DNA of 64,000 nt, taken from the NCBI RefSeq assembly GCF_006438965.1, contig NZ_RCZM01000001.1, forward strand, positions 683,097 to 747,096, in the 5' to 3' direction. A program made the position numbers and the translations under genes. The notes beneath the pieces were generated by a model. The model searched no databases. It saw only the letters and a list, made by a program, of their open reading frames with translations, and was not told where the DNA came from. Below are positions 3,213 through 51,209 of the stretch, in pieces (the first letter of the stretch is position 1; the number at the start of each line of letters is the position of its first letter). The stretch comes from Pedococcus bigeumensis. Its GTDB lineage: Bacteria > Actinomycetota > Actinomycetes > Actinomycetales > Dermatophilaceae.

Positions 3213-4568
3213 TCAGGACCAGTAGACGCGGCCCGGGTTGAGGATCCCCCGCGGGTCGAACAGGGCCTTGACTGCCCGCTGGCGGTCCAGCTCGCGTTCC
3301 CCGAGCTCCTGGGCCAACCACGGCGCCTTGAGGGTGCCCACACCGTGCTCGCCGGTGATGGTGCCGCCCATCTGCAGGGCCGCGGTGATGATCTCGGTGA
3401 ATGCGCGATGGGCGCGCTCGCGGCTGGCGGGGTCGGCGGCGTCGAAGAAGATGCTCGGGTGCAGGTTGCCGTCGCCCGCGTGCCCGGCCATCACGACCTC
3501 GAGGCCGTGCTGCGCGCCGATGGCCTGCCCGGTCCGGATCAGGTCGGTGAGTCTCCCGACCGGCACACAGACGTCCTCGAGGTAGCGCGCGCCCTTCGCC
3601 TCGAGAGCCGGGCTGAGCGCGCGGCGGCCCGCGAGCAGCAGGTCGGCCTCGGCCGCGTCGTCGGCGACAGCGACGTCCACGGCACCCGCGTCGGCGAGCA
3701 GCACGGCATACCGCTGCACGTCCTCCGCGGTGTGGTCCGGACGGTCGGACTGGACGAGCAGCACGGCCTCGCAGTCCTGCGGGAAGCCGTAGTCCGCCAG
3801 CGCCTGCACCGCCGCCACGGCGGCCCGGTCGAGCAGCTCGACGAGCGAGGGCACGTGGCGTTCGTGGCGCAGCGCGACGATCGCCTGTCCCGCCGCGTCG
3901 AGCGAGTCGAAGGTCGCCAGGACCGTGAGCGCGGGGTCGGGCGCGGGGAGCAGCCGGGTGGTGACCTCGGTGACCACGCCGAGCGTCCCCTCGGACCCGA
4001 CGAAGAGCCCGGTGAGGTCGAGGCCGGCCACTCCCTTGGCGGTGCGGTGGCCGGTGCGGATCACCTCGCCGCCGGGCAGCACCACCTGGAGTGCGCGCAC
4101 GTAGTCGGCCGTGACGCCGTACTTGACGCAGCACAGGCCACCCGCGTTGGTGGCGACGTTGCCGCCGATGGTGCAGAACGCCGAGCTCGCGGGGTCGGGC
4201 GGGTAGAAGAGCCCCTGCGCGGCCGCGGCGTCCTTGAGGTCCTTGTTGATCACGCCCGGGCCGAGCACGGCCAGGCCTTCGAGCGGGTCGATGGTCGTGA
4301 TCGAGTCGAGCCCCTCGGTGTTGAGCACCACGCCGCCATCGATCGCCACCGAGCTGCCCGTGAGGCTGCTTCGTGCGCCTTGTGGCACGACCGGTGTGCG
4401 TGTCTCGTGAGCCCAGCGCATCACCTCGACCACGTCGTCGAGGTCGCGAGCCCGAACCACCTCGAAGTCCCCGGGCGCAGTGGCACCGACCGACTCGTCG
4501 GTCGCGTAGGTGGCCTTGACGTCGGGGTCGGTGACGGTGCGGATGGGCAGCGAGGTGTGCGTGCTCAT
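3213..4568 (-). CDS. FAD-linked oxidase, GlcD / D-lactate dehydrogenase type
   Basis: This 451-residue flavoprotein of the PCMH/VAO family oxidises a 2-hydroxy acid (glycolate or D-lactate class) to a 2-oxo acid. The N-terminal FAD-binding domain carries PVVPQGARSSLTGSS, which binds the FAD pyrophosphate, and a Gly-rich block beginning NVATNAGGLCC. The C-terminal domain has HAGDGNLHPSIFFD and GTITGEHGVGTLKAPWL, which line the active site in GlcD and Dld proteins. The ATG overlaps the stop of the ECF S-component gene by four bases (ATGA), so it is the last cistron of the corrinoid operon. No known step in cobalamin use needs it; co-transcription may be incidental. The open frame continues upstream through the transporter genes, but that extension is out of frame with real coding and is not part of the protein. 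Confidence 0.85.
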   Translation of the reverse strand: MSTHTSLPIRTVTDPDVKATYATDESVGATAPGDFEVVRARDLDDVVEVMRWAHETRTPVVPQGARSSLTGSSVAIDGGVVLNTEGLDSITTIDPLEGLAVLGPGVINKDLKDAAAAQGLFYPPDPASSAFCTIGGNVATNAGGLCCVKYGVTADYVRALQVVLPGGEVIRTGHRTAKGVAGLDLTGLFVGSEGTLGVVTEVTTRLLPAPDPALTVLATFDSLDAAGQAIVALRHERHVPSLVELLDRAAVAAVQALADYGFPQDCEAVLLVQSDRPDHTAEDVQRYAVLLADAGAVDVAVADDAAEADLLLAGRRALSPALEAKGARYLEDVCVPVGRLTDLIRTGQAIGAQHGLEVVMAGHAGDGNLHPSIFFDAADPASRERAHRAFTEIITAALQMGGTITGEHGVGTLKAPWLAQELGERELDRQRAVKALFDPRGILNPGRVYWS

Positions 4569-5446
4569 CCCTGCAGCGTATGCCGCGTGGCCGGCGCGTC
4601 GCGGAGGTGCGCCCCTTGGTCGAAGCCCACGTCCGCGTCGGAGTCCATGTCCGCGTCGAAGCCCACGTCCGCGTCGAAGGCGGCTCGACGGGAGGCGCGG
4701 CGCAGGGTCCCGAGGACGGCCCGGCCGGTCACGGCGATGAGGACGACGTTGGTCAGGGCGCGGCCGAGGTCCCACCAGAGCGAGGTGGCGGCCGAGAAGA
4801 CCCCGAACCGGCGCAGGTTCTCCCACGGCGCGGCGCCGGCCACGAACGACAGGTCGCTCTCGAGCCCGCTGGCGAACGGCCAGAAGGAGAAGTTGAGGGC
4901 GACGCCGTAGAGCAGACCCGCGACCGCCCCGTAGCCGGCGAGCAGCAGGACCTCCCACCGGGCGGGAACCCGCGGCAGCAGACCGGCGCCGAGGCCGACC
5001 CAGGCGGCACCCAGCATCTGGTACGGCAGCCAGGGCCCGACACCGCCCGTGATCAGCGCCGAGGCGAACAGCGTGGTCGACCCCAGGACGAACCCGAAGC
5101 CCGGACCGAAGACGCGGCCGCCGAGGATCAGCAGGAAGAACACCGTCTCCAGGCCTGCGGTGCCGGCGCCCAGCGGACGCAGCGCAGCACCCACGGCGGA
5201 CAGCACCCCGAGCATCGCCACGGCTTTGACGTCGAGGCCGCCCTCGCTGATCTCGAACAGCACCACCGCCATGAGCAGCGGCAGCAGGAGGGCGAAGACG
5301 AGGGGGGCGTCGGCATTCTGACCGAGCCGGGAGTCCGCTGTGGCGAACAACGGCCACCCGAACGCGAGCAGGCCCGCGAGCGAGACGAGGACGAGCGCCA
5401 CCGTGGAGCGGGGCCGCAGCGCGATGACGCTGATCGGGGGGGCCAT
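4565..5446 (-). CDS. ECF transporter S component (substrate-binding membrane subunit), probable corrinoid
   Basis: This 293-residue integral membrane protein has about seven hydrophobic segments, for example STVALVLVSLAGLLAFGWPL, VFALLLPLLMAVVLF and LLAGYGAVAGLLYGVALNF. It sits directly after EcfA and EcfT genes with overlapping start and stop codons (TGATG with the ATPase gene), the normal arrangement of a dedicated group I ECF importer. S components bind the vitamin and topple in the membrane when driven by the EcfT/A module (family knowledge). Substrate is inferred as cobalamin or a related corrinoid from the riboswitch heading the operon and the transcobalamin-like partners; nothing in the protein itself proves it. 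The last 40 residues are hydrophilic and hold a short acidic repeat (FDADVG, FDADMD, SDADVG), which is unusual. Confidence 0.75.
   Translation of the reverse strand: MAPPISVIALRPRSTVALVLVSLAGLLAFGWPLFATADSRLGQNADAPLVFALLLPLLMAVVLFEISEGGLDVKAVAMLGVLSAVGAALRPLGAGTAGLETVFFLLILGGRVFGPGFGFVLGSTTLFASALITGGVGPWLPYQMLGAAWVGLGAGLLPRVPARWEVLLLAGYGAVAGLLYGVALNFSFWPFASGLESDLSFVAGAAPWENLRRFGVFSAATSLWWDLGRALTNVVLIAVTGRAVLGTLRRASRRAAFDADVGFDADMDSDADVGFDQGAHLRDAPATRHTLQG
4619..4684 (-). repeat. 18-bp tandem repeat in the S-component tail
   Basis: Three full 18-base units beginning GTCCGCGTCG at 4631, 4649 and 4667, plus part of a fourth, encode repeats of six residues (F/S-D-A-D-V/M-G/D). They lie in the cytoplasmic-looking C-terminal tail. 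Confidence 0.85.
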
Positions 5447-7200
5447 CAGCGCGAACCTCCCGCGGTTGCCGTGAGGGCGGACTCCACCTGGTCGAGCCGC
5501 AGCAGCCGCAGGGGGGCCAGCACCTTGGCCACCTGGGGTGCGAAAGCGGGGGAGTCGCAGAGGACGTCGGTCGCGGGTCCGTCGGCGACGATCCTGCCCT
5601 CGGACATGACGATGACACGGTCGGCGACGGTGGCCGCGAACTCGACGTCGTGGGTGGCCACGGCCAGGGCGCTGCCGTTGGCCGCGAGGTCGCGCAGCAG
5701 ACCTCCGAGGACCGCCTTGGCGGGGTAGTCCAGACCGCGGGTGGGCTCGTCGAGCAACAGTGCGGCGGGGGCGGCAGCGAGCTGGATCGCCAGGACCAGG
5801 GCGAGCTGCTGCCCCTCCGACAGGTCGCGGGGGTGGTGGTCGTCCGGTATCCCGGGGGCCAACCGGTCGAGGGTGGCGCGCGTGGCGCCGGGCTCGGCTC
5901 CGGTCTCGTGGTCGGACTGACGACACTCGGCTCGGACCGAGTCGAGGTAGAGCAGGTCGGGCGCGCTCTGGGGTACGAGTCCGATGTGGCTGCGCCGGAC
6001 CTTGGGCGACTCCGTGGCGGGGTCGACGCGGGTTCCCGAGGCGGCCAGGACCGAGACGTCACCGGCACTCCGAGCCGCTGTCCCGTGCAGCGCCCACAGC
6101 AGCGAGGACTTGCCAGCACCGTTGCGGCCCATGAGGACTGCGACCTCACCGTCCCGCAGGGACAGGTCGACCGAGCGGACGGCTGCCACCGTCCCGTGGG
6201 TGACCTCGAGCTCCGTTGCGACCACGCGCTCGCCAGCGGGAGGTGATCCCGGTCCAGTGGCCACGACACGCTGACCGACCCCGGACGGCGCCGGCGTGTC
6301 GTGCACTCTGGACTCCGACGGACCCGGCGACGTGGCCGACGAGGCGAGGAGGTCCGCCCGCAAGGTGGTCGCGGCCCGCCGGGCGTCCCGGATGGTCAGC
6401 GGCAGCGGCTGCCAGCCGGCCCATCGGCCGAGGTGGACGACCGGTGGGGCGAGGGGTGCGCTCGCCATGACGTCACGCGCCAGACCGTGGCTGACCGTGC
6501 CGTCGTCCGCGACCAGGATGACGCGGTCGGCGGTTCCGACGATGCGTTCGAGGCGGTGCTCGGACAGCACGACCGTCAGGCCGAGGTCGTGGACCAGCCG
6601 GGACAGCGTCGCGAGGACCTCTTCGGCGCCGGTCGGGTCCAGGGCCGAGGTGGGTTCGTCCAGGACCAGCAGGCGGGGGCTGGCAGTCAGCACCGAGCCG
6701 ATGGCGACGCGCTGCTGCTGTCCGCCGGACAGGTCACGCAGCGGGGCGTCGCGCAGGTCGGCGATCCCGAGCAGGTCGAGCACCTCCTCGACCCGGCGTC
6801 GCATGGCGGGCGGGTCGAGCGCGAGCTGCTCGAGCGTGTAGGCCAGCTCCTCCTCCACGGTGTCCGTCACGAAGCCGGCCAGCGGGTCCTGGCGCACCAC
6901 GCCCACCACCTCCGCGAGGTCGCGAGGGCGGTGGGTCCGGGTGTCGCGACCGCAGACGGTGACCCGGCCGGACAGGTGGCCTCCGGTGAAGTGCGGGACG
7001 GTGCCGTTCACGGCCCCGAGCAGGGTGGACTTGCCCGAGCCTGTGCGTCCGGTGACGACGACGAGCTCGCCCTCCTCGAGCACGAACGACGCCGAGCGGA
7101 GAGCGGGCCTGGAGCTTCCGGCATACCGGATGGTGACGTTGTCGAAGACGACGGGAGCGCTGGCGTCGGGAATGACCGGGGTGGCGGGGTGGATGTTCAT
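5446..7200 (-). CDS. ECF transporter ATPase with two fused ABC domains (EcfA1-EcfA2 type)
   Basis: This 584-residue cytoplasmic protein contains two complete ABC cassettes in tandem. The first has Walker A GRTGSGKST at 51-59, signature LSGGQQQR at 157-164 and Walker B LLVLDEP at 177-183. The second has Walker A GRNGAGKSS at 359-367, signature LSEGQQ at 461-466 and Walker B LLLDEP at 482-487. The duplicated ATPase corresponds to the EcfA/EcfA' heterodimer of vitamin importers, here made as one chain. It powers uptake by coupling to EcfT. The gene overlaps EcfT by four bases upstream and the S component by one base downstream, which argues for translational coupling of all three. The second signature has E in place of the second G, as is common in the degenerate half of such ATPases. 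Confidence 0.92.
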   Translation of the reverse strand: MNIHPATPVIPDASAPVVFDNVTIRYAGSSRPALRSASFVLEEGELVVVTGRTGSGKSTLLGAVNGTVPHFTGGHLSGRVTVCGRDTRTHRPRDLAEVVGVVRQDPLAGFVTDTVEEELAYTLEQLALDPPAMRRRVEEVLDLLGIADLRDAPLRDLSGGQQQRVAIGSVLTASPRLLVLDEPTSALDPTGAEEVLATLSRLVHDLGLTVVLSEHRLERIVGTADRVILVADDGTVSHGLARDVMASAPLAPPVVHLGRWAGWQPLPLTIRDARRAATTLRADLLASSATSPGPSESRVHDTPAPSGVGQRVVATGPGSPPAGERVVATELEVTHGTVAAVRSVDLSLRDGEVAVLMGRNGAGKSSLLWALHGTAARSAGDVSVLAASGTRVDPATESPKVRRSHIGLVPQSAPDLLYLDSVRAECRQSDHETGAEPGATRATLDRLAPGIPDDHHPRDLSEGQQLALVLAIQLAAAPAALLLDEPTRGLDYPAKAVLGGLLRDLAANGSALAVATHDVEFAATVADRVIVMSEGRIVADGPATDVLCDSPAFAPQVAKVLAPLRLLRLDQVESALTATAGGSR

Positions 7201-8288
7201 CGGGTGCCATCCCGTCGCGCCACCGGCGGGTCAGGCGCGACGAACGTGGGCAGGGCTGCGACGAGGATCCCGAGGACTGCGAGCAGGGGGAGTGCCGGCG
7301 CAGCCAACGGCTGCACCGGCAGCGCCAGGGAGTCGGGGGCGTGTCCGGCCTGGACCACCATGAGCACCGCCGCCACGACGCCGGATCCGGCGACGAGCCA
7401 CTCGGGGAGCCCCCAGGGGTCCGGCCGGTAGACGCTGCGCTGCACGCTGCGACCACCGACGCGCATGCCGATCGCCGACAGGGCCAGCCCGAGGACGAGC
7501 ATCGGCATCCCGATGAGGGTCGGTGCGGTGCCGTCGAGCAGCCCGTACATGCCGATGCCGGCGCCGAGGAGGCCAGTGAGGGTCAGGGCCCCGGTGAGCC
7601 GACGGGAGCTGGTCGACTGCGCGGTGCGTCGGCCGTAGCCGCGCGAGTCCATGGCCGAGGCGAGGGCCAGCGACCGGTCGAGCGTGTCCTGCAGGACGGG
7701 CAGGGCGACCCGGCCGACCGACCGGATCCCGGCACCGCCCTCGCCCCGGAGCACCCGCGCGCGGCGGACCCGCTGGACGCTCTCGGCGAGCTGCGGCGCC
7801 ACGGTCACCGAGATGACGACCGCGGTGCCGATCTCGTGCAGGGCGCTGGGCAGGGCGCGCAGCAGCCGCTTGGGGTTGGCGAGGGCGTTGGCGGCGCCGA
7901 TGCAGGCGATCAGGCTCGCGAGCCGCAGGCCTTCTGCAGCGGCGGCGAGGATGCCTTCGAGGTAGAGCGGGCCGAGCAGGGTGATGCCGGGTAGCTCGAC
8001 GCTGGGCAGCGTGTAGAGCTTCATGGTGCCGAACTTGTAGCCCACCAGGACATGCAGCGCGACGCGCAGGACGATGATGAACGCGCCGAGCACGAGGTAG
8101 AGCCGGAAGGCGCGGGCCCACGGCGAGCTGCCGCGCTTGGCCGCGACGACCAGGCTCGCGACGCTCACCGCGAGCAGGAGCAGCAGCGGGTTGTTCGTGC
8201 GCGAGCAGGCCACCGCGAGCCCGATCGCCCACACCCACCAAGCGACGGGGTGCAGGTGACGGGACAGCGGTGTGCCTGCTGCGCGCAC
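7197..8288 (-). CDS. ECF transporter transmembrane coupling protein EcfT
   Basis: This 363-residue membrane protein starts at GTG and has clusters of hydrophobic segments at both ends (WWVWAIGLAVACSRTNNPLL near residue 20, and several after residue 235). Two charged coupling-helix regions fit the EcfT family: RVRRARVLRGEGG and AMDSRGYGRR, which correspond to the two 'A-R-G' motifs that dock onto the ATPases (family knowledge). The length is larger than the usual 260-residue EcfT, because of extra segments near the C terminus. It begins six bases after the DUF4430-like gene and overlaps the ATPase gene by four bases. It would form the scaffold joining the double ATPase with the S component encoded two genes downstream. 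Confidence 0.88.
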   Translation of the reverse strand: MRAAGTPLSRHLHPVAWWVWAIGLAVACSRTNNPLLLLLAVSVASLVVAAKRGSSPWARAFRLYLVLGAFIIVLRVALHVLVGYKFGTMKLYTLPSVELPGITLLGPLYLEGILAAAAEGLRLASLIACIGAANALANPKRLLRALPSALHEIGTAVVISVTVAPQLAESVQRVRRARVLRGEGGAGIRSVGRVALPVLQDTLDRSLALASAMDSRGYGRRTAQSTSSRRLTGALTLTGLLGAGIGMYGLLDGTAPTLIGMPMLVLGLALSAIGMRVGGRSVQRSVYRPDPWGLPEWLVAGSGVVAAVLMVVQAGHAPDSLALPVQPLAAPALPLLAVLGILVAALPTFVAPDPPVARRDGTR

Positions 8289-8293
8289 GGAGC

Positions 8294-9154
8294 CTACGTG
8301 GTGGTTCGGCGACGCACCGCGAGGTATGCCGCGCCGGCACCGACCAGCCCGACGAGGCCGAGCCCGGCCAGCAAGGTCATCGGCGTACCGGAGCCGGGGT
8401 CGGCCGCTGCGGCAGCGGTCCTCTCGCCGGAGCCGGTGCTGCCGTTGGGGGACACTGTCACCGAGCCGGTCGCCGCTGTCGATGTTGAGTCGTTCGGTAG
8501 GACAGTGGTGGCTGACGGCTTGACCCCGGGAGTGGGGCCGGCCGACGAGCCGGAGGCAGCGCTTCCTGCCTGAGGCGTCGTGCCGGACGTGCTCGAACCG
8601 CTGGGCTTGGCCGGGGTGGTGCCCGCCGGCTTGGGCTTGGCGGCCGGCGGCTTGCTCGACGAGCTGGACGGACTCGGCCGGGGCGTCGGCTTCGGCTGGG
8701 GCTTGGGCGCCGCAGCCGGGGGCGCGCTGCTCGGCGCGCCCCCAGACCCGAAGGCGAACCCGATCACGCTGCCGGGCGCCGGGTTGTAGCCCGCTACACC
8801 CACCTGGCTGTAGGTCCAGGAGCCCCCGCGTAGCGCGTGGTAGAACGCCCAGTAGGCGTCAGCCGGCGGCATCTGGATGCACGGGTCGCTCGCGGGCGTG
8901 CCGTTGATCCGGCACACGACAGTGCCCGGGTACCGCTGCGGGCTCACGACAGCCGCAACCGCCCTGAGGGCCGACATCGCGGAGGTGGGGTCGCCGGACG
9001 CGCACGAGGTGGTGCTGGAGGAGCCGTAGTCGATGACGACGGTGACCCCGGAGGTGCCGGAGCAAGCCGCCGCTTGGGCGGCCCCACCCGGGAGGGTGAG
9101 GCCACCGGCGACGACGAGCCCGGCGACTGCGGTGAGGCGGGCAACGGTCCGCAT
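8294..9154 (-). CDS. Secreted, C-terminally membrane-anchored DUF4430-like (transcobalamin beta-domain-like) protein
   Basis: The 286-residue product has a signal peptide (about 1-29, ending GGAAQAA). A domain of about 110 residues follows: GVTVVIDYG, YPGTVVCRINGTPASDPC, YWAFYHALRGGSWTYSQVGV and PAPGSVIGFAFG. The 'YW-x-Y/F-x-H-x-x-x-GG-x-W-x-YS' core is typical of DUF4430-like domains, the small beta domain that closes over the corrinoid in animal transcobalamin and intrinsic factor. A Pro/Ser/Lys-rich linker leads to one transmembrane segment (about 262-280) and RRRTTT. Four cysteines in the domain could form disulfides. The start codon overlaps the stop of the toroid-protein gene by one base, so the two are probably made in fixed ratio. 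I infer that it is the lid partner of that protein; this needs proof. Confidence 0.7.
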   Translation of the reverse strand: MRTVARLTAVAGLVVAGGLTLPGGAAQAAACSGTSGVTVVIDYGSSSTTSCASGDPTSAMSALRAVAAVVSPQRYPGTVVCRINGTPASDPCIQMPPADAYWAFYHALRGGSWTYSQVGVAGYNPAPGSVIGFAFGSGGAPSSAPPAAAPKPQPKPTPRPSPSSSSSKPPAAKPKPAGTTPAKPSGSSTSGTTPQAGSAASGSSAGPTPGVKPSATTVLPNDSTSTAATGSVTVSPNGSTGSGERTAAAAADPGSGTPMTLLAGLGLVGLVGAGAAYLAVRRRTTT

Positions 9155-10788
9155 CAGGCGTGCGCCCCCTTCCTTCGCGCCAGGACGATGGCGCCGACAC
9201 CGGCTGCGAGGAGCAGGGAGGCCACCAGCAGCGTCGCCGCGATGTTGCTGCCGGTGAATGCGAGTCTGCCCGGGGCGGCCGATGCGGCCGGGGCCGCCGC
9301 CGGGTCGGCCGGCGAGGAGGTGGAGCTCGTGCCGCCCCCGCTCGAGGTGCTGGTCGTCGTGCTGGTGGTCGTGCTGCTGGTCGTGCTCGACGTCGTCGCT
9401 GCGCAGGCCAGGTCGGGCGCGGTGGCGTCCGCACCGGTGGCAGACACGGCGAACAGTGGTGCGCCGGCCAGCGCGAGCACGGCCTGGGACGTGGCCCGTC
9501 GGTCCTGGTCGGTCACTGCGGTTGCGGCTGCCTCGGCCGCCGCGTTGTAGGCGATTCCCCCGCGCAGCGCCACCGGTGCCGTGCAGCCGTACTGCACGGA
9601 GCGCAGGTAGGCCTGGGCGGCACGGGCCTGTGCAGAGCGTCCTCCCGCGAGGAACGCCTGGCCGGCCAGACCGGTCGAGTTGGCGTTGACCTCGGCGGTC
9701 GGACCTGCGCCACCAACGCCACCACCGGCCCGCTGGATGCCGGCGAGGTAGTCAAGGCCCTGCCCGGCGTCCGCGTCTGCGGTCCCCGCCGCAGCAATGA
9801 GGGCCTGAACCGCGAAGGCGGTCACGTCGGGGTCGCTGGTGCAGGGCGAGGCGCCGAAGGAGAGACTGAAGCCGCCGTCGGTGCACTGGTTGGCACGGAT
9901 GATGCTGACCGAGGCGGCACTCGGGGTCTGCCCGGCCCGGATGAGGCTCATCACGGCCAGCGACTGACCGATCAGGTTGGAGTAGTCGGCGAACGGGCTC
10001 TCCGGAGTGCCGGCACCGGACTTGTCCGAGAAGCGGCCACTCGGCTTCTCGAGCGACTGGAGGCTGGCGATGAGGTCGACCCCGCCGAAGGCCCGCGGGT
10101 TGACTCCCTGCGCGCCGGCCACGAGCAGGGCCTTGGCCAGGGCGCCGGCGTAGAGCTCGGTGGCACCGTAGGCCGGGCCGATGTATTCGTTGATGTGGTC
10201 CGCGGCGTACGCGGTGGCGGCAGTGGCCTCGGTCTGACCTGCGCCGGCGGCGTCGAGCGCCAGCACGCCGTCCAGGGTGAGTCCGTAGTCGGCGTAGTCG
10301 ACGCCGTCAAAGGTCTGCGAGAAGTGGTGTCCGCCGGTCGCGAGCTCGCGCTCGAGGAAGCCCGCGGCGACGAGGGTCGGATCCGTCGAGGTCTCCGGGA
10401 GTGCGGCGGCTGCCCTCAGGCCGTAGCGCGCGGAGTCGCCACCCAGGACCAGCCCTGCGGTGGGGGAGGTGCTCTGCTCGGTGGTCGACGTGGTCGATCG
10501 CGACCTCGTCGCGGTCGGGGTCGTCCCAGTCGGCGTGCCGGTCGCGGTGCCCGTGGTGGGCTCGCTGGACGTCGTGGTCGAACCGGCGGTCGACGAGGTG
10601 GCGGCGGGCGTCGTCGTCGAGCCGGTGGGTTCGGCGGTCGTGCTCGCGCCCGTGCTCGTCGTACTCGTGGTGGTGACGGGGGTGGGCTCGGTCGTGCCGG
10701 CGAACGCCGCGCCGGGCAGGACCAGAGCGACCCCCAGGGTCAGGGCGAGGGCAGCGGCCGTGCGGGCGCTGCGAAGGGTGCGGTGCAT
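9154..10788 (-). CDS. Sortase-anchored alpha/alpha-toroid surface protein, transcobalamin/intrinsic-factor-like
   Basis: This 544-residue exported protein starts at the ATG five bases after GAGAGG. The signal peptide ends GAAFA (about residue 31), and a Thr/Ser-rich stalk runs to about 110. The body (about 120-455) holds helical repeats of the prenyltransferase/squalene-cyclase toroid kind: FLERELATGGHHFSQ, YADYGLTLDGVLAL, FGGVDLIASLQSL, YSNLIGQSLAVMSL, QCTDGGFSL, DPDVTAFAVQALIAA, NSTGLAGQAFLAGG. A second Thr/Ser stalk follows. The C terminus has LAFTG, a hydrophobic segment and ARRKG, a sorting signal of the LAxTG type used by class E sortases. The toroid fold is shared with cobalamin-binding transcobalamins; with the riboswitch and ECF genes this suggests corrinoid capture outside the cell. 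An enzymatic prenyltransferase role is unlikely, as no metal or DxDD site is visible. Confidence 0.78.
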   Translation of the reverse strand: MHRTLRSARTAAALALTLGVALVLPGAAFAGTTEPTPVTTTSTTSTGASTTAEPTGSTTTPAATSSTAGSTTTSSEPTTGTATGTPTGTTPTATRSRSTTSTTEQSTSPTAGLVLGGDSARYGLRAAAALPETSTDPTLVAAGFLERELATGGHHFSQTFDGVDYADYGLTLDGVLALDAAGAGQTEATAATAYAADHINEYIGPAYGATELYAGALAKALLVAGAQGVNPRAFGGVDLIASLQSLEKPSGRFSDKSGAGTPESPFADYSNLIGQSLAVMSLIRAGQTPSAASVSIIRANQCTDGGFSLSFGASPCTSDPDVTAFAVQALIAAAGTADADAGQGLDYLAGIQRAGGGVGGAGPTAEVNANSTGLAGQAFLAGGRSAQARAAQAYLRSVQYGCTAPVALRGGIAYNAAAEAAATAVTDQDRRATSQAVLALAGAPLFAVSATGADATAPDLACAATTSSTTSSTTTSTTTSTSSGGGTSSTSSPADPAAAPAASAAPGRLAFTGSNIAATLLVASLLLAAGVGAIVLARRKGAHA

Positions 10789-10846
10789 GATGCCTCTCAA
10801 TGCGAAAGGTGTCGCGACGGGTGCACCGGCACCAGAACGTGAAAGA

Positions 10847-10877
10847 CCCCCGGCGTCGCAACAGCGACATCGGGGGG
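10847..10877 (-). terminator. Intrinsic terminator of the cobalamin riboswitch
   Basis: Read on the minus strand, CCCCCG pairs with CGGGGG and an inner GTCGC pairs with GCGAC around a TGTT loop. The sequence then runs into TCTTTC. It lies between the riboswitch core and the toroid gene, so it can stop transcription when ligand is bound. Confidence 0.7.
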
Positions 10878-10919
10878 CGGCCTCGGACCTGGTGTCCGGG
10901 CTCCGCCCCGCGTACCTCG

Positions 10920-11053
10920 ACGGAAATGGAGCCGCTTCGCGATCCAGGTGTTCCGGCTCGCCGCGTTTCAAAGCGGCCTACGGTTGCGGGTCAGCGCCGG
11001 AGTTGGACCGGCTTCCCCTGGTTGTCGCGTCGTGGTGTCGCCCTGGGGCAACG
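10920..11053 (-). promoter_or_regulatory. Cobalamin (B12) riboswitch
   Basis: On the minus strand the leader contains, in order, AGGGGAAGCCGGTCC, AACTCCGGCGCTGACCCGCA, ACCGTAGG, a short hairpin GCCGC-TTTGAAAC-GCGGC, and GAGCCGGAACACCTGG. The 'GGCGCTGACCCGCAACCGT' core and the final B12 box are the hallmarks of the cobalamin riboswitch family. The segment between core and B12 box is short, and the GCCACTG box of the long btuB type is missing, so it resembles the compact actinobacterial forms. An intrinsic terminator follows, so ligand should switch the operon off. It heads the toroid-DUF4430-ECF operon and is the main evidence for the substrate of that system. Confidence 0.88.
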
Positions 11054-11059
11054 CCGCTC

Positions 11060-11065
11060 AGACTA
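11060..11065 (-). promoter_or_regulatory. -10 element of the corrinoid-capture operon
   Basis: TAGTCT on the minus strand would start transcription near 11053, just before the first paired bases of the cobalamin riboswitch. No clear -35 is visible. Confidence 0.45.
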
Positions 11066-51094: not shown

Positions 51095-51209
51095 GAGTCC
51101 GCGCTTGCCGGCTGCAGACGCAGACGGCCCGGTCGTCACCCGGAGCACCCCACCGCGGAGGAGGGTTGCTGGTCAGCAAGCCGGGGCTTCGCGCTGACAC
51201 TCATGACCT
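51095..51209 (-). promoter_or_regulatory. SAM-IV riboswitch
   Basis: On the minus strand: GGTCATGAGTGTCAGCGCGA, AGCCCCGGCTTGCTGACC, AGCAACCCTCC, CGCGGTGGGGTGCTCCGGGT, GACGACCGGG and a final GGCAAGCGCGG. The order GGTCATGAG...GCCCCGGCTTGCTG...GCAACCCTCC...GCGGTGGGGTGC and the terminal GGCAAGCGCGG pseudoknot segment match the actinobacterial SAM-IV class. It lies directly before the aminotransferase start; with AGGAG near the end and no obvious terminator, control is likely on translation. Confidence 0.88.

Follow-up and report, generated by a model that had tools for sequence, protein, structure and literature searches.

A cobalamin riboswitch operon of Pedococcus bigeumensis with an alpha/alpha-toroid protein, a divergent DUF4430 protein and an ECF importer: a probable corrinoid uptake system

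Background

How corrinoids are captured at the surface of Gram-positive cells has been little studied. The question is raised by an operon on the minus strand (11017-4565) of a 64,000-nucleotide stretch of Pedococcus bigeumensis DNA (contig NZ_RCZM01000001.1, positions 683,097 to 747,096; "the window"), in which a cobalamin riboswitch is followed by five genes for an alpha/alpha-toroid surface protein, a second surface protein with a small DUF4430-like domain, and the EcfT, fused EcfA-EcfA and S component of an energy-coupling factor (ECF) importer. The initial annotation of the window read this operon as a riboswitch-controlled, split, transcobalamin-like corrinoid capture system feeding the importer. 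That reading turned out to be well supported: on the grounds of homology, synteny, a riboswitch survey, metH linkage in relatives and the lack of CbiC in the host, we consider riboswitch-controlled corrinoid uptake by surface capture and ECF import highly probable.

In Gram-negative bacteria BtuB/BtuG and BtuF capture their substrate at the surface or in the periplasm before an ATP-driven importer takes it up, and cobalamin riboswitches often control them; their folds and importer class are unrelated to those of the window system. The CbrT/CbrUVT systems were reportedly predicted by Rodionov in 2009. ECF import of B12 is established for ECF-CbrT of Lactobacillus (passages of PMC5997447), and predicted CbrUVT is named in passages of PMC6593275 and PMC8123684. 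Proteins with soluble-ligand-binding beta-grasp (SLBB) domains and toroids encoded in CbiO/CbiQ operons have been proposed to be B12 scavengers (passages of Burroughs et al. 2007, PMC1796856).

Results

The operon and its importer

The aptamer matched RF00174 above the gathering threshold, over model positions 46-168 of 189 (E 1.1e-5 in the search of the whole window; Table 1). The genes behind it overlap or nearly abut: the toroid gene (544 amino acids) and the small-domain gene (286 amino acids) share a TGATG, 5 nucleotides separate the latter from EcfT, EcfT overlaps EcfA-EcfA by ATGA, and EcfA-EcfA meets the S component in a second TGATG. Because the ATG at 5446 overlaps the EcfA stop, the S component was taken to have 293 amino acids and not the 297 that an upstream GTG would give. 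EcfT matched CbiQ (PF02361), the double EcfA contains two ABC domains, and the S component matched ECF_trnsprt (PF12822) just under the cut-off (E about 1e-6). Encoded together, EcfT, two EcfA domains and an S component constitute a group I ECF transporter. The riboswitch, the single five-gene operon (three overlaps and one short gap) and the importer described in the initial annotation are all confirmed by these data.

The S component belongs to an unassigned family. A profile of 28 sequences found no solved relative among PDB sequences at E <= 1, CbrT included, and the nearest models were PF12822 (matched by 22/28 sequences), TIGR04518 (19/28) and PF07155 (11/28).

The two surface proteins

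The toroid protein matched the NCBIfam model SCO2321_fam with E 1.2e-23 (83.7 bits, under the model cut-off of 300). At its C-terminus the motif LAFTG, a hydrophobic segment and a basic tail follow each other in the pattern of LxxTG-type sortase substrates, and the NCBIfam LAVTG model matched residues 509-539, below its cut-off (E 0.0044). A sorting-type motif was present in 23 and a hydrophobic end in 39 of 57 toroid-bearing frames. Together with the fold class described below, the sorting signal bears out the sortase-anchored toroid of the initial annotation, in which the covalent attachment itself is the presumptive part. Searching the genome contigs with the toroid yielded two loci only.

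When a profile of 21 toroid relatives (alignment A1) was compared with PDB sequences, squalene-hopene and drimenyl cyclases were found (best E 7e-20), and no transcobalamin was among the matches at E <= 1. The Pfam family Prenyltrans was matched by 15 of the 21 relatives at E <= 1 (best 4.7e-5). In a fold search with an AlphaFold2 model built from three sequences, squalene cyclases came top (template modelling score, TM, 0.62), followed by prenyltransferase beta subunits and glycosidases; rat transcobalamin appeared at ranks 28 and 41 (TM 0.54-0.55). By its modelled fold class the first protein is an alpha/alpha toroid, an assignment that implies no kinship to transcobalamin. A special kinship between this toroid and the animal carriers was rejected, as by sequence it goes with squalene cyclases and by fold transcobalamin is one of many toroids that resemble it.

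The second protein consists of a signal peptide, a small domain, a long Pro/Ser/Thr-rich stretch and a hydrophobic segment with an RRR end. The C-terminus is a membrane tail anchor, so that the "secreted DUF4430-like protein" of the initial annotation is better described as tail-anchored. Its DUF4430 character is invisible to direct sequence search: the protein matched NCBIfam SCO2322_fam under the cut-off of 85 (E 2e-7, 31.4 bits) and had no Pfam match, none of 24 relatives in alignment A2 matched PF14478 (DUF4430), and the window's own genome holds no PF14478 match. Among PDB sequences at E <= 10 the A2 profile found ten antibody chains (best E 0.029) and no transcobalamin.

The relationship emerged from profile comparison. 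In hhalign, the extended family (67 sequences) aligned to DUF4430 (26 domains) with a probability of 96.2% (P 2.3e-9), the narrower A2 family with 89.8% and the lone window sequence with 52.9%. The reversed profile gave 0.3%, 60 column permutations at most 1.3%, and profiles of four unrelated operon proteins at most 0.9%; circular shifts kept 96%, but since local alignment allows this they do not constitute a control. Taking into account that profile comparison and synteny (see below) agree, the second domain is, at the level of sequence, homologous to DUF4430, and we call it a divergent DUF4430 domain (SLBB, transcobalamin C-terminal-like) with a putative beta-grasp fold. A profile of canonical DUF4430 (alignment A6, 18 actinobacterial sequences) reached 3u7z (E 0.0043) and, among PDB sequences at E <= 10, no transcobalamin; the link from DUF4430 to transcobalamin is for this reason taken from the literature, where DUF4430 is placed at the C-terminus of TCN proteins (passages of PMC4350170). 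Of the claim that the operon encodes the two folds of transcobalamin, the toroid fold class and the DUF4430 homology hold, and a special closeness to the animal proteins finds no support.

Conservation, synteny and fusions

The SCO2321 model was matched at E <= 0.001 by 22 of 59 genomes drawn from the family, in no case above the model's cut-off, and tblastn on the 22 stretches detected all five genes in 15. In a draw at the level of the class, the second-domain profile matched 181 of 394 genomes, many of the matches being partial. Forty of these stretches were fetched; the second domain, EcfT, EcfAA and S were present in 35 and a toroid domain in 27.

Canonical DUF4430 domains have a similar setting. 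PF14478 was found in 42 of 246 genomes of the phylum, of which the window's class contributed only two. In 20 such stretches, EcfAA-like and S-like genes adjoin in 17 (16 outside the window's class), and an EcfT-like match and a toroid occur in 12 each. The canonical DUF4430 gene lies directly 5' of EcfT in other actinobacterial classes, like the gene for the window's second protein, whereas the toroid is usually the last gene there and the first in the window type. One genome (G145) has a window-type domain, ECF genes, a toroid and a canonical DUF4430 gene all in one row.

Where a locus has both toroid and SLBB-like genes, they are mostly adjacent or fused, and the first gene after the riboswitch is often the toroid. 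Fusions in which the toroid precedes the SLBB-like domain, the order of the animal proteins, were seen in L035 (522 amino acids, 3406-4971) and L087 (497 amino acids, 5706-7196); in L065, L068 and L071 the SLBB-like domain is ahead of two toroid stretches.

The riboswitch and the leader

The survey of upstream regions covered 57 loci, among them the window and with genome G010 counted twice, in which readable sequence precedes a gene for the second domain; L076, whose contig begins inside the gene, and toroid-only loci were excluded. A same-strand upstream match of the cobalamin class was found in 48 loci. In 29 it reached the Rfam cut-off (13 of these come from the matches listed in an RF00174-only scan with stricter filters), in 19 it was below the cut-off with E <= 0.024, and nine had none. 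In L061, L068 and L071 a stronger riboswitch faces a divergent gene, and the weaker match on the operon strand was counted. L188 and L189, fetched later, also lie behind above-cut-off riboswitches; ten other later-fetched loci were outside the upstream scan. Whole-library Rfam scans of the survey loci, the RF00174-only scan apart, revealed no other vitamin riboswitch; the other families found were a group II intron and, at E 0.05-0.09, two small RNAs and an antitoxin RNA. As regards the co-occurrence of the two genes with S component and riboswitch, which the initial annotation had proposed to survey, the second-domain gene goes with a cobalamin-class match in these 48 of 57 loci and with the importer genes in the 35 of 40 stretches described above, and in the whole-library scans the homologous operons were not found under the riboswitch of a different vitamin.

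A terminator behind the riboswitch had also been claimed. The GC-rich hairpin directly 3' of the aptamer is followed by TCTTTCAC. The two nearest relatives, both Phycicoccus (L003, with changed letters, and L004), share this hairpin, which also appears in the computed fold of the leader; the total energy of that fold is not unusual (z -1.29). The U-run is short, and a strict terminator scan found none in the window leader. Among 27 leaders scanned, 16 had no candidate; clear ones directly behind the aptamer were confined to the window, L003 and L004, those of L045 and L126 were equalled by none of 20 shuffles, and six further leaders had weaker ones. Conservation of the hairpin in the Phycicoccus relatives makes transcription attenuation plausible in this group, and the 16 leaders without a candidate and the six with weak ones suggest that many relatives may switch translation instead. 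As a general feature of the family, the terminator was rejected.

Several further arrangements of cobalamin riboswitches were encountered. L080 and L088 (family f26), which belong to the short-match type, in which only the end of the domain is matched by the second-domain profile, have no riboswitch directly upstream, yet their genomes hold at least six and at least seven, respectively. At least four are found on both strands round the operon in each of G151:C1:672172-683898 and G295:C40:101136-110152. In L054 a toroid gene (6972-7997, minus strand) lies behind its own riboswitch (8180-8046, minus strand), with an ATPase pair about 3 kb further and no SLBB-like gene found in the stretch. In L078, from a genome of 1.2 Mb, an SLBB-like gene (6162-6686, minus strand) follows a riboswitch, and the profiles detected no ECF genes within the 13-kb stretch. 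The other cobalamin riboswitch of the host (91 bits, G000:C6:415902-416142; L001 1501-1741) precedes a gene (L001 1752-2972) for a lipoprotein-like DUF4185 protein of 406 amino acids, possibly a second surface corrinoid binder.

Links to B12 metabolism

In families f4 and f2, all 12 genomes with a second-domain match carry exactly one protein with the B12-binding domain PF02310 (a search blind to B12 enzymes that lack this domain). In all 12 its gene adjoins the SLBB-ECF cluster and points towards it; in 11 the gap to the S-component frame is between 4 nucleotides and about 2.4 kb, and in G381 the gene is outside the fetched stretch, at a distance of about 3.5 kb. Two of these proteins were typed, and both are methionine synthase (MetH). 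Since few genera are involved, the 12 genomes do not represent 12 independent events. Five of the nine loci without a riboswitch belong to these two families, and in the five genomes no RF00174 match at E <= 0.001 was among the matches listed.

In most of the f4 and f2 loci the importer is a single frame, EcfT-EcfA-EcfA-S (950-1361 amino acids, the longest including upstream codons), next to the SLBB-like gene. This arrangement was found in nine of the 12 loci (L073, L074, L075, L094, L181, L182, L183, L185 and L187); in the other three EcfT-EcfA-EcfA is fused and S is separate. Fused EcfA pairs have already been described in ECF transporters (passages of PMC6828968), and the literature passages on fused ECF subunits mention A-pair fusions and no T-A-A-S chain.

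The window's genome has six B12-binding-domain matches and no CbiC match, and the operon is a candidate B12 importer for organisms that lack CbiC. In the 59 family genomes CbiC was missing from 20 of 38 with the second domain and from 5 of 21 without it (p 0.053). The value was 0.04 in the 53 genomes at least 90% complete, or 0.0098 there with G046 moved, a genome in which a contig end interrupts the operon. Full-length matches alone (21 genomes) gave 0.031.

Discussion

In the mechanism that we favour, low intracellular cobalamin would cause the riboswitch to permit expression of the operon. The alpha/alpha-toroid protein would be displayed on the surface, with its LAFTG signal linking it to the wall, and the DUF4430-type domain would be presented on a flexible stalk held by the C-terminal membrane anchor. 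The two would capture a corrinoid between them in the manner of the paired transcobalamin domains and then deliver it to the S component of the dedicated (group I) ECF transporter, in which EcfT and the double EcfA would drive import. The corrinoid nature of the ligand, its hand-over to the S component and the covalent anchoring to the wall are parts that we infer. A joint clamp of the corrinoid by toroid and DUF4430-like domain, suggested by analogy with transcobalamin, has in our opinion an about even chance of being correct.

Several observations weigh against this explanation. In fold and sequence the toroid stands closer to squalene cyclases and prenyltransferase beta subunits than to transcobalamin. 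The model of the second domain is poor (predicted local distance difference test, pLDDT, 48.6), and a fold search with it gave no match with E <= 0.001, although its order of elements (strand-helix-strand-strand-strand-strand) is compatible with a beta-grasp with a hairpin insert; structure prediction of the separate proteins, proposed in the initial annotation as a check, gave an alignment with alpha/alpha toroids, transcobalamin among them, for the first and no fold match for the second. Nine survey loci lack a cobalamin riboswitch (L051, L053, L073, L074, L075, L080, L083, L088 and L094), and 19 of the 57 have only a sub-threshold one. No toroid domain was detected in 13 of the 40 class-level stretches, which means that the toroid is not obligatory; five of the 13 also lack some ECF genes, partly because of contig ends. 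The association with CbiC loss is weak, with p values uncorrected for descent, and disappears (p 1.0) in the 17 genomes that have the short-match type only. Because 18 of the 38 carriers of the domain retain CbiC, the system extends beyond apparent auxotrophs; B12 synthesis was judged from CbiC alone, not from the whole pathway.

The most serious alternative is a variant of the same explanation, in which corrinoids are taken up but one of the surface proteins, or neither, binds them. The DUF4430-like domain could alone capture the ligand or dock it to the S component, and the toroid could be an accessory, e.g. one that binds other corrinoid forms, a carrier or a cell-wall sugar. SLBB-ECF clusters without a detected toroid, namely the 13 class-level stretches and all 12 clusters of f4 and f2, are consistent with this, as are operons with two or three SLBB genes and the toroid genes located away from the cluster in L043, L044 and L054. 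In G003 and G027, however, an SLBB-ECF cluster is present at another place as well (L188, L189), and the adjacency or fusion of the two genes in most loci that have both, with the toroid often in first place, speaks against the variant. We consider this variant somewhat doubtful.

Importers of cobalt or of B12 precursors (cobinamide, cobyrinate, dimethylbenzimidazole) deserve consideration because cobalamin riboswitches are known to control transporters of cobalt and of B12 precursors (passages of PMC3766115) and EcfT matches CbiQ. No S relative, however, matched a CbiM model, and a host without a CbiC match would have little use for cobalt as a starting material of de novo synthesis. B12 carriers, moreover, contain a domain to which the partner domain is homologous. 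Corrin-ring precursors would still fit; import of cobalt or precursors instead of complete corrinoids appears unlikely. Even less probable, to the point of being very unlikely, is that the surface proteins act on an unrelated ligand such as a wall polymer or a prenyl lipid and that the riboswitch is a mere link to B12 status. The cyclases found as best solved relatives of the toroid profile would suit such a role, but surface display, the riboswitch, co-transcription with an ECF importer, as indicated by the overlaps, and metH linkage in families where no riboswitch was found speak against it.

The idea of corrinoid uptake through such surface capture, and with it that of a bacterial origin of the animal carriers, goes back to a publication of 2007: in passages of PMC1796856 the carriers are proposed to derive from low-GC Gram-positives, and the transcobalamin-type SLBB clade is reported from animals, low-GC Gram-positives, planctomycetes and some euryarchaea. 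The bacterial origin put forward in the initial annotation is for this reason not a new inference. As far as those passages go, the 2007 systems share with the window signal-peptide-bearing, sometimes wall-anchored SLBB proteins, toroids, a CbiO-like ATPase and CbiQ-like genes. In contrast to them, the window belongs to Actinomycetes, its domain is too divergent for the Pfam DUF4430 model, and in the window type toroid and SLBB domain are mostly separate and lie behind a cobalamin riboswitch, a word that does not occur in the searched text of PMC1796856. With animal transcobalamin and intrinsic factor the system has in common an alpha/alpha toroid and a DUF4430-type domain, fused in the same order in some relatives; unlike transcobalamin, it has two separate surface proteins, an ECF importer and no sequence match to the animal protein. 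Like ECF-CbrT and predicted CbrUVT (passages of the sources given above) it would import cobalamin or cobinamide through an S component. It differs from them in being a dedicated operon with surface capture proteins and an S family without a solved sequence relative.

Literature searches, with most subscription papers beyond reach, found no paper that treats SCO2321-SCO2325 as B12 proteins; the sole paper found to name SCO2321 concerns, to judge by its listing, a cell-penetrating peptide. SLBB, cobalamin and ECF occurred together in no paper found, nor was any test found of the 2007 proposal that bacterial toroid-SLBB proteins capture B12. In the literature searched, which did not extend to Rodionov 2009, we did not find described the divergent actinomycete branch (SCO2321/SCO2322 families), its riboswitch and split arrangement, the toroid-DUF4430-like fusions in animal order or the single-chain ECF importer beside metH. 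It is tempting to suppose that Actinomycetes hold a deeply diverged transcobalamin-like branch, in which separate toroid and SLBB proteins would close on the corrinoid in trans, with fusions in animal order and, in two families, a T-A-A-S importer next to metH; the complete picture may be correct, but we lean slightly against it. If true, the branch would be a bacterial model for the assembly of the animal carriers. It is common, yet labelled only "SCO2321/SCO2322 family" in NCBIfam, and it makes the 2007 proposal testable, since toroid and SLBB proteins can be expressed separately, fusions occur naturally and the riboswitch provides a readout.

Other features of the window

Table 1. Features of the operon and the adjoining gene (positions in the window; pTM, predicted template modelling score; FAD, flavin adenine dinucleotide)
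Feature	Position	Strand	Evidence or remark
Cobalamin riboswitch aptamer (RF00174)	10891..11017	-	36.6 bits, gathering 31.5
Terminator-like hairpin 3' of aptamer, short U-rich tail	10847..10876	-	12 pairs, one mismatch
Toroid surface protein, SCO2321 family, signal peptide and LAFTG sorting signal	9154..10788	-	family models
Modelled toroid domain	9388..10392	-	alignments A1, A4; AlphaFold2 pLDDT 70, pTM 0.78
LAFTG sorting motif ahead of C-terminal hydrophobic segment	9250..9264	-	translation; NCBIfam LAVTG, below cut-off
DUF4430/SLBB-like surface protein, SCO2322 family, signal peptide, stalk, tail anchor	8294..9154	-	family models
Divergent DUF4430 (transcobalamin C-terminal-like) domain, predicted	8732..9070	-	alignment A2; hhalign
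EcfT (CbiQ-like)	7197..8288	-	PF02361 E 4.9e-10
Fused EcfA-EcfA ATPase	5446..7200	-	two ABC_tran stretches, ECF_ATPase_1
S component	4565..5446	-	PF12822 7e-7, just under cut-off
FAD-linked oxidase, ATG overlapping S stop	3213..4568	-	next cistron in close relatives only

The FAD-linked oxidase gene follows the S component in 4 of 22 loci. Elsewhere in the window, a SAM-IV riboswitch was detected at 51096-51208 on the minus strand (112.5 bits).

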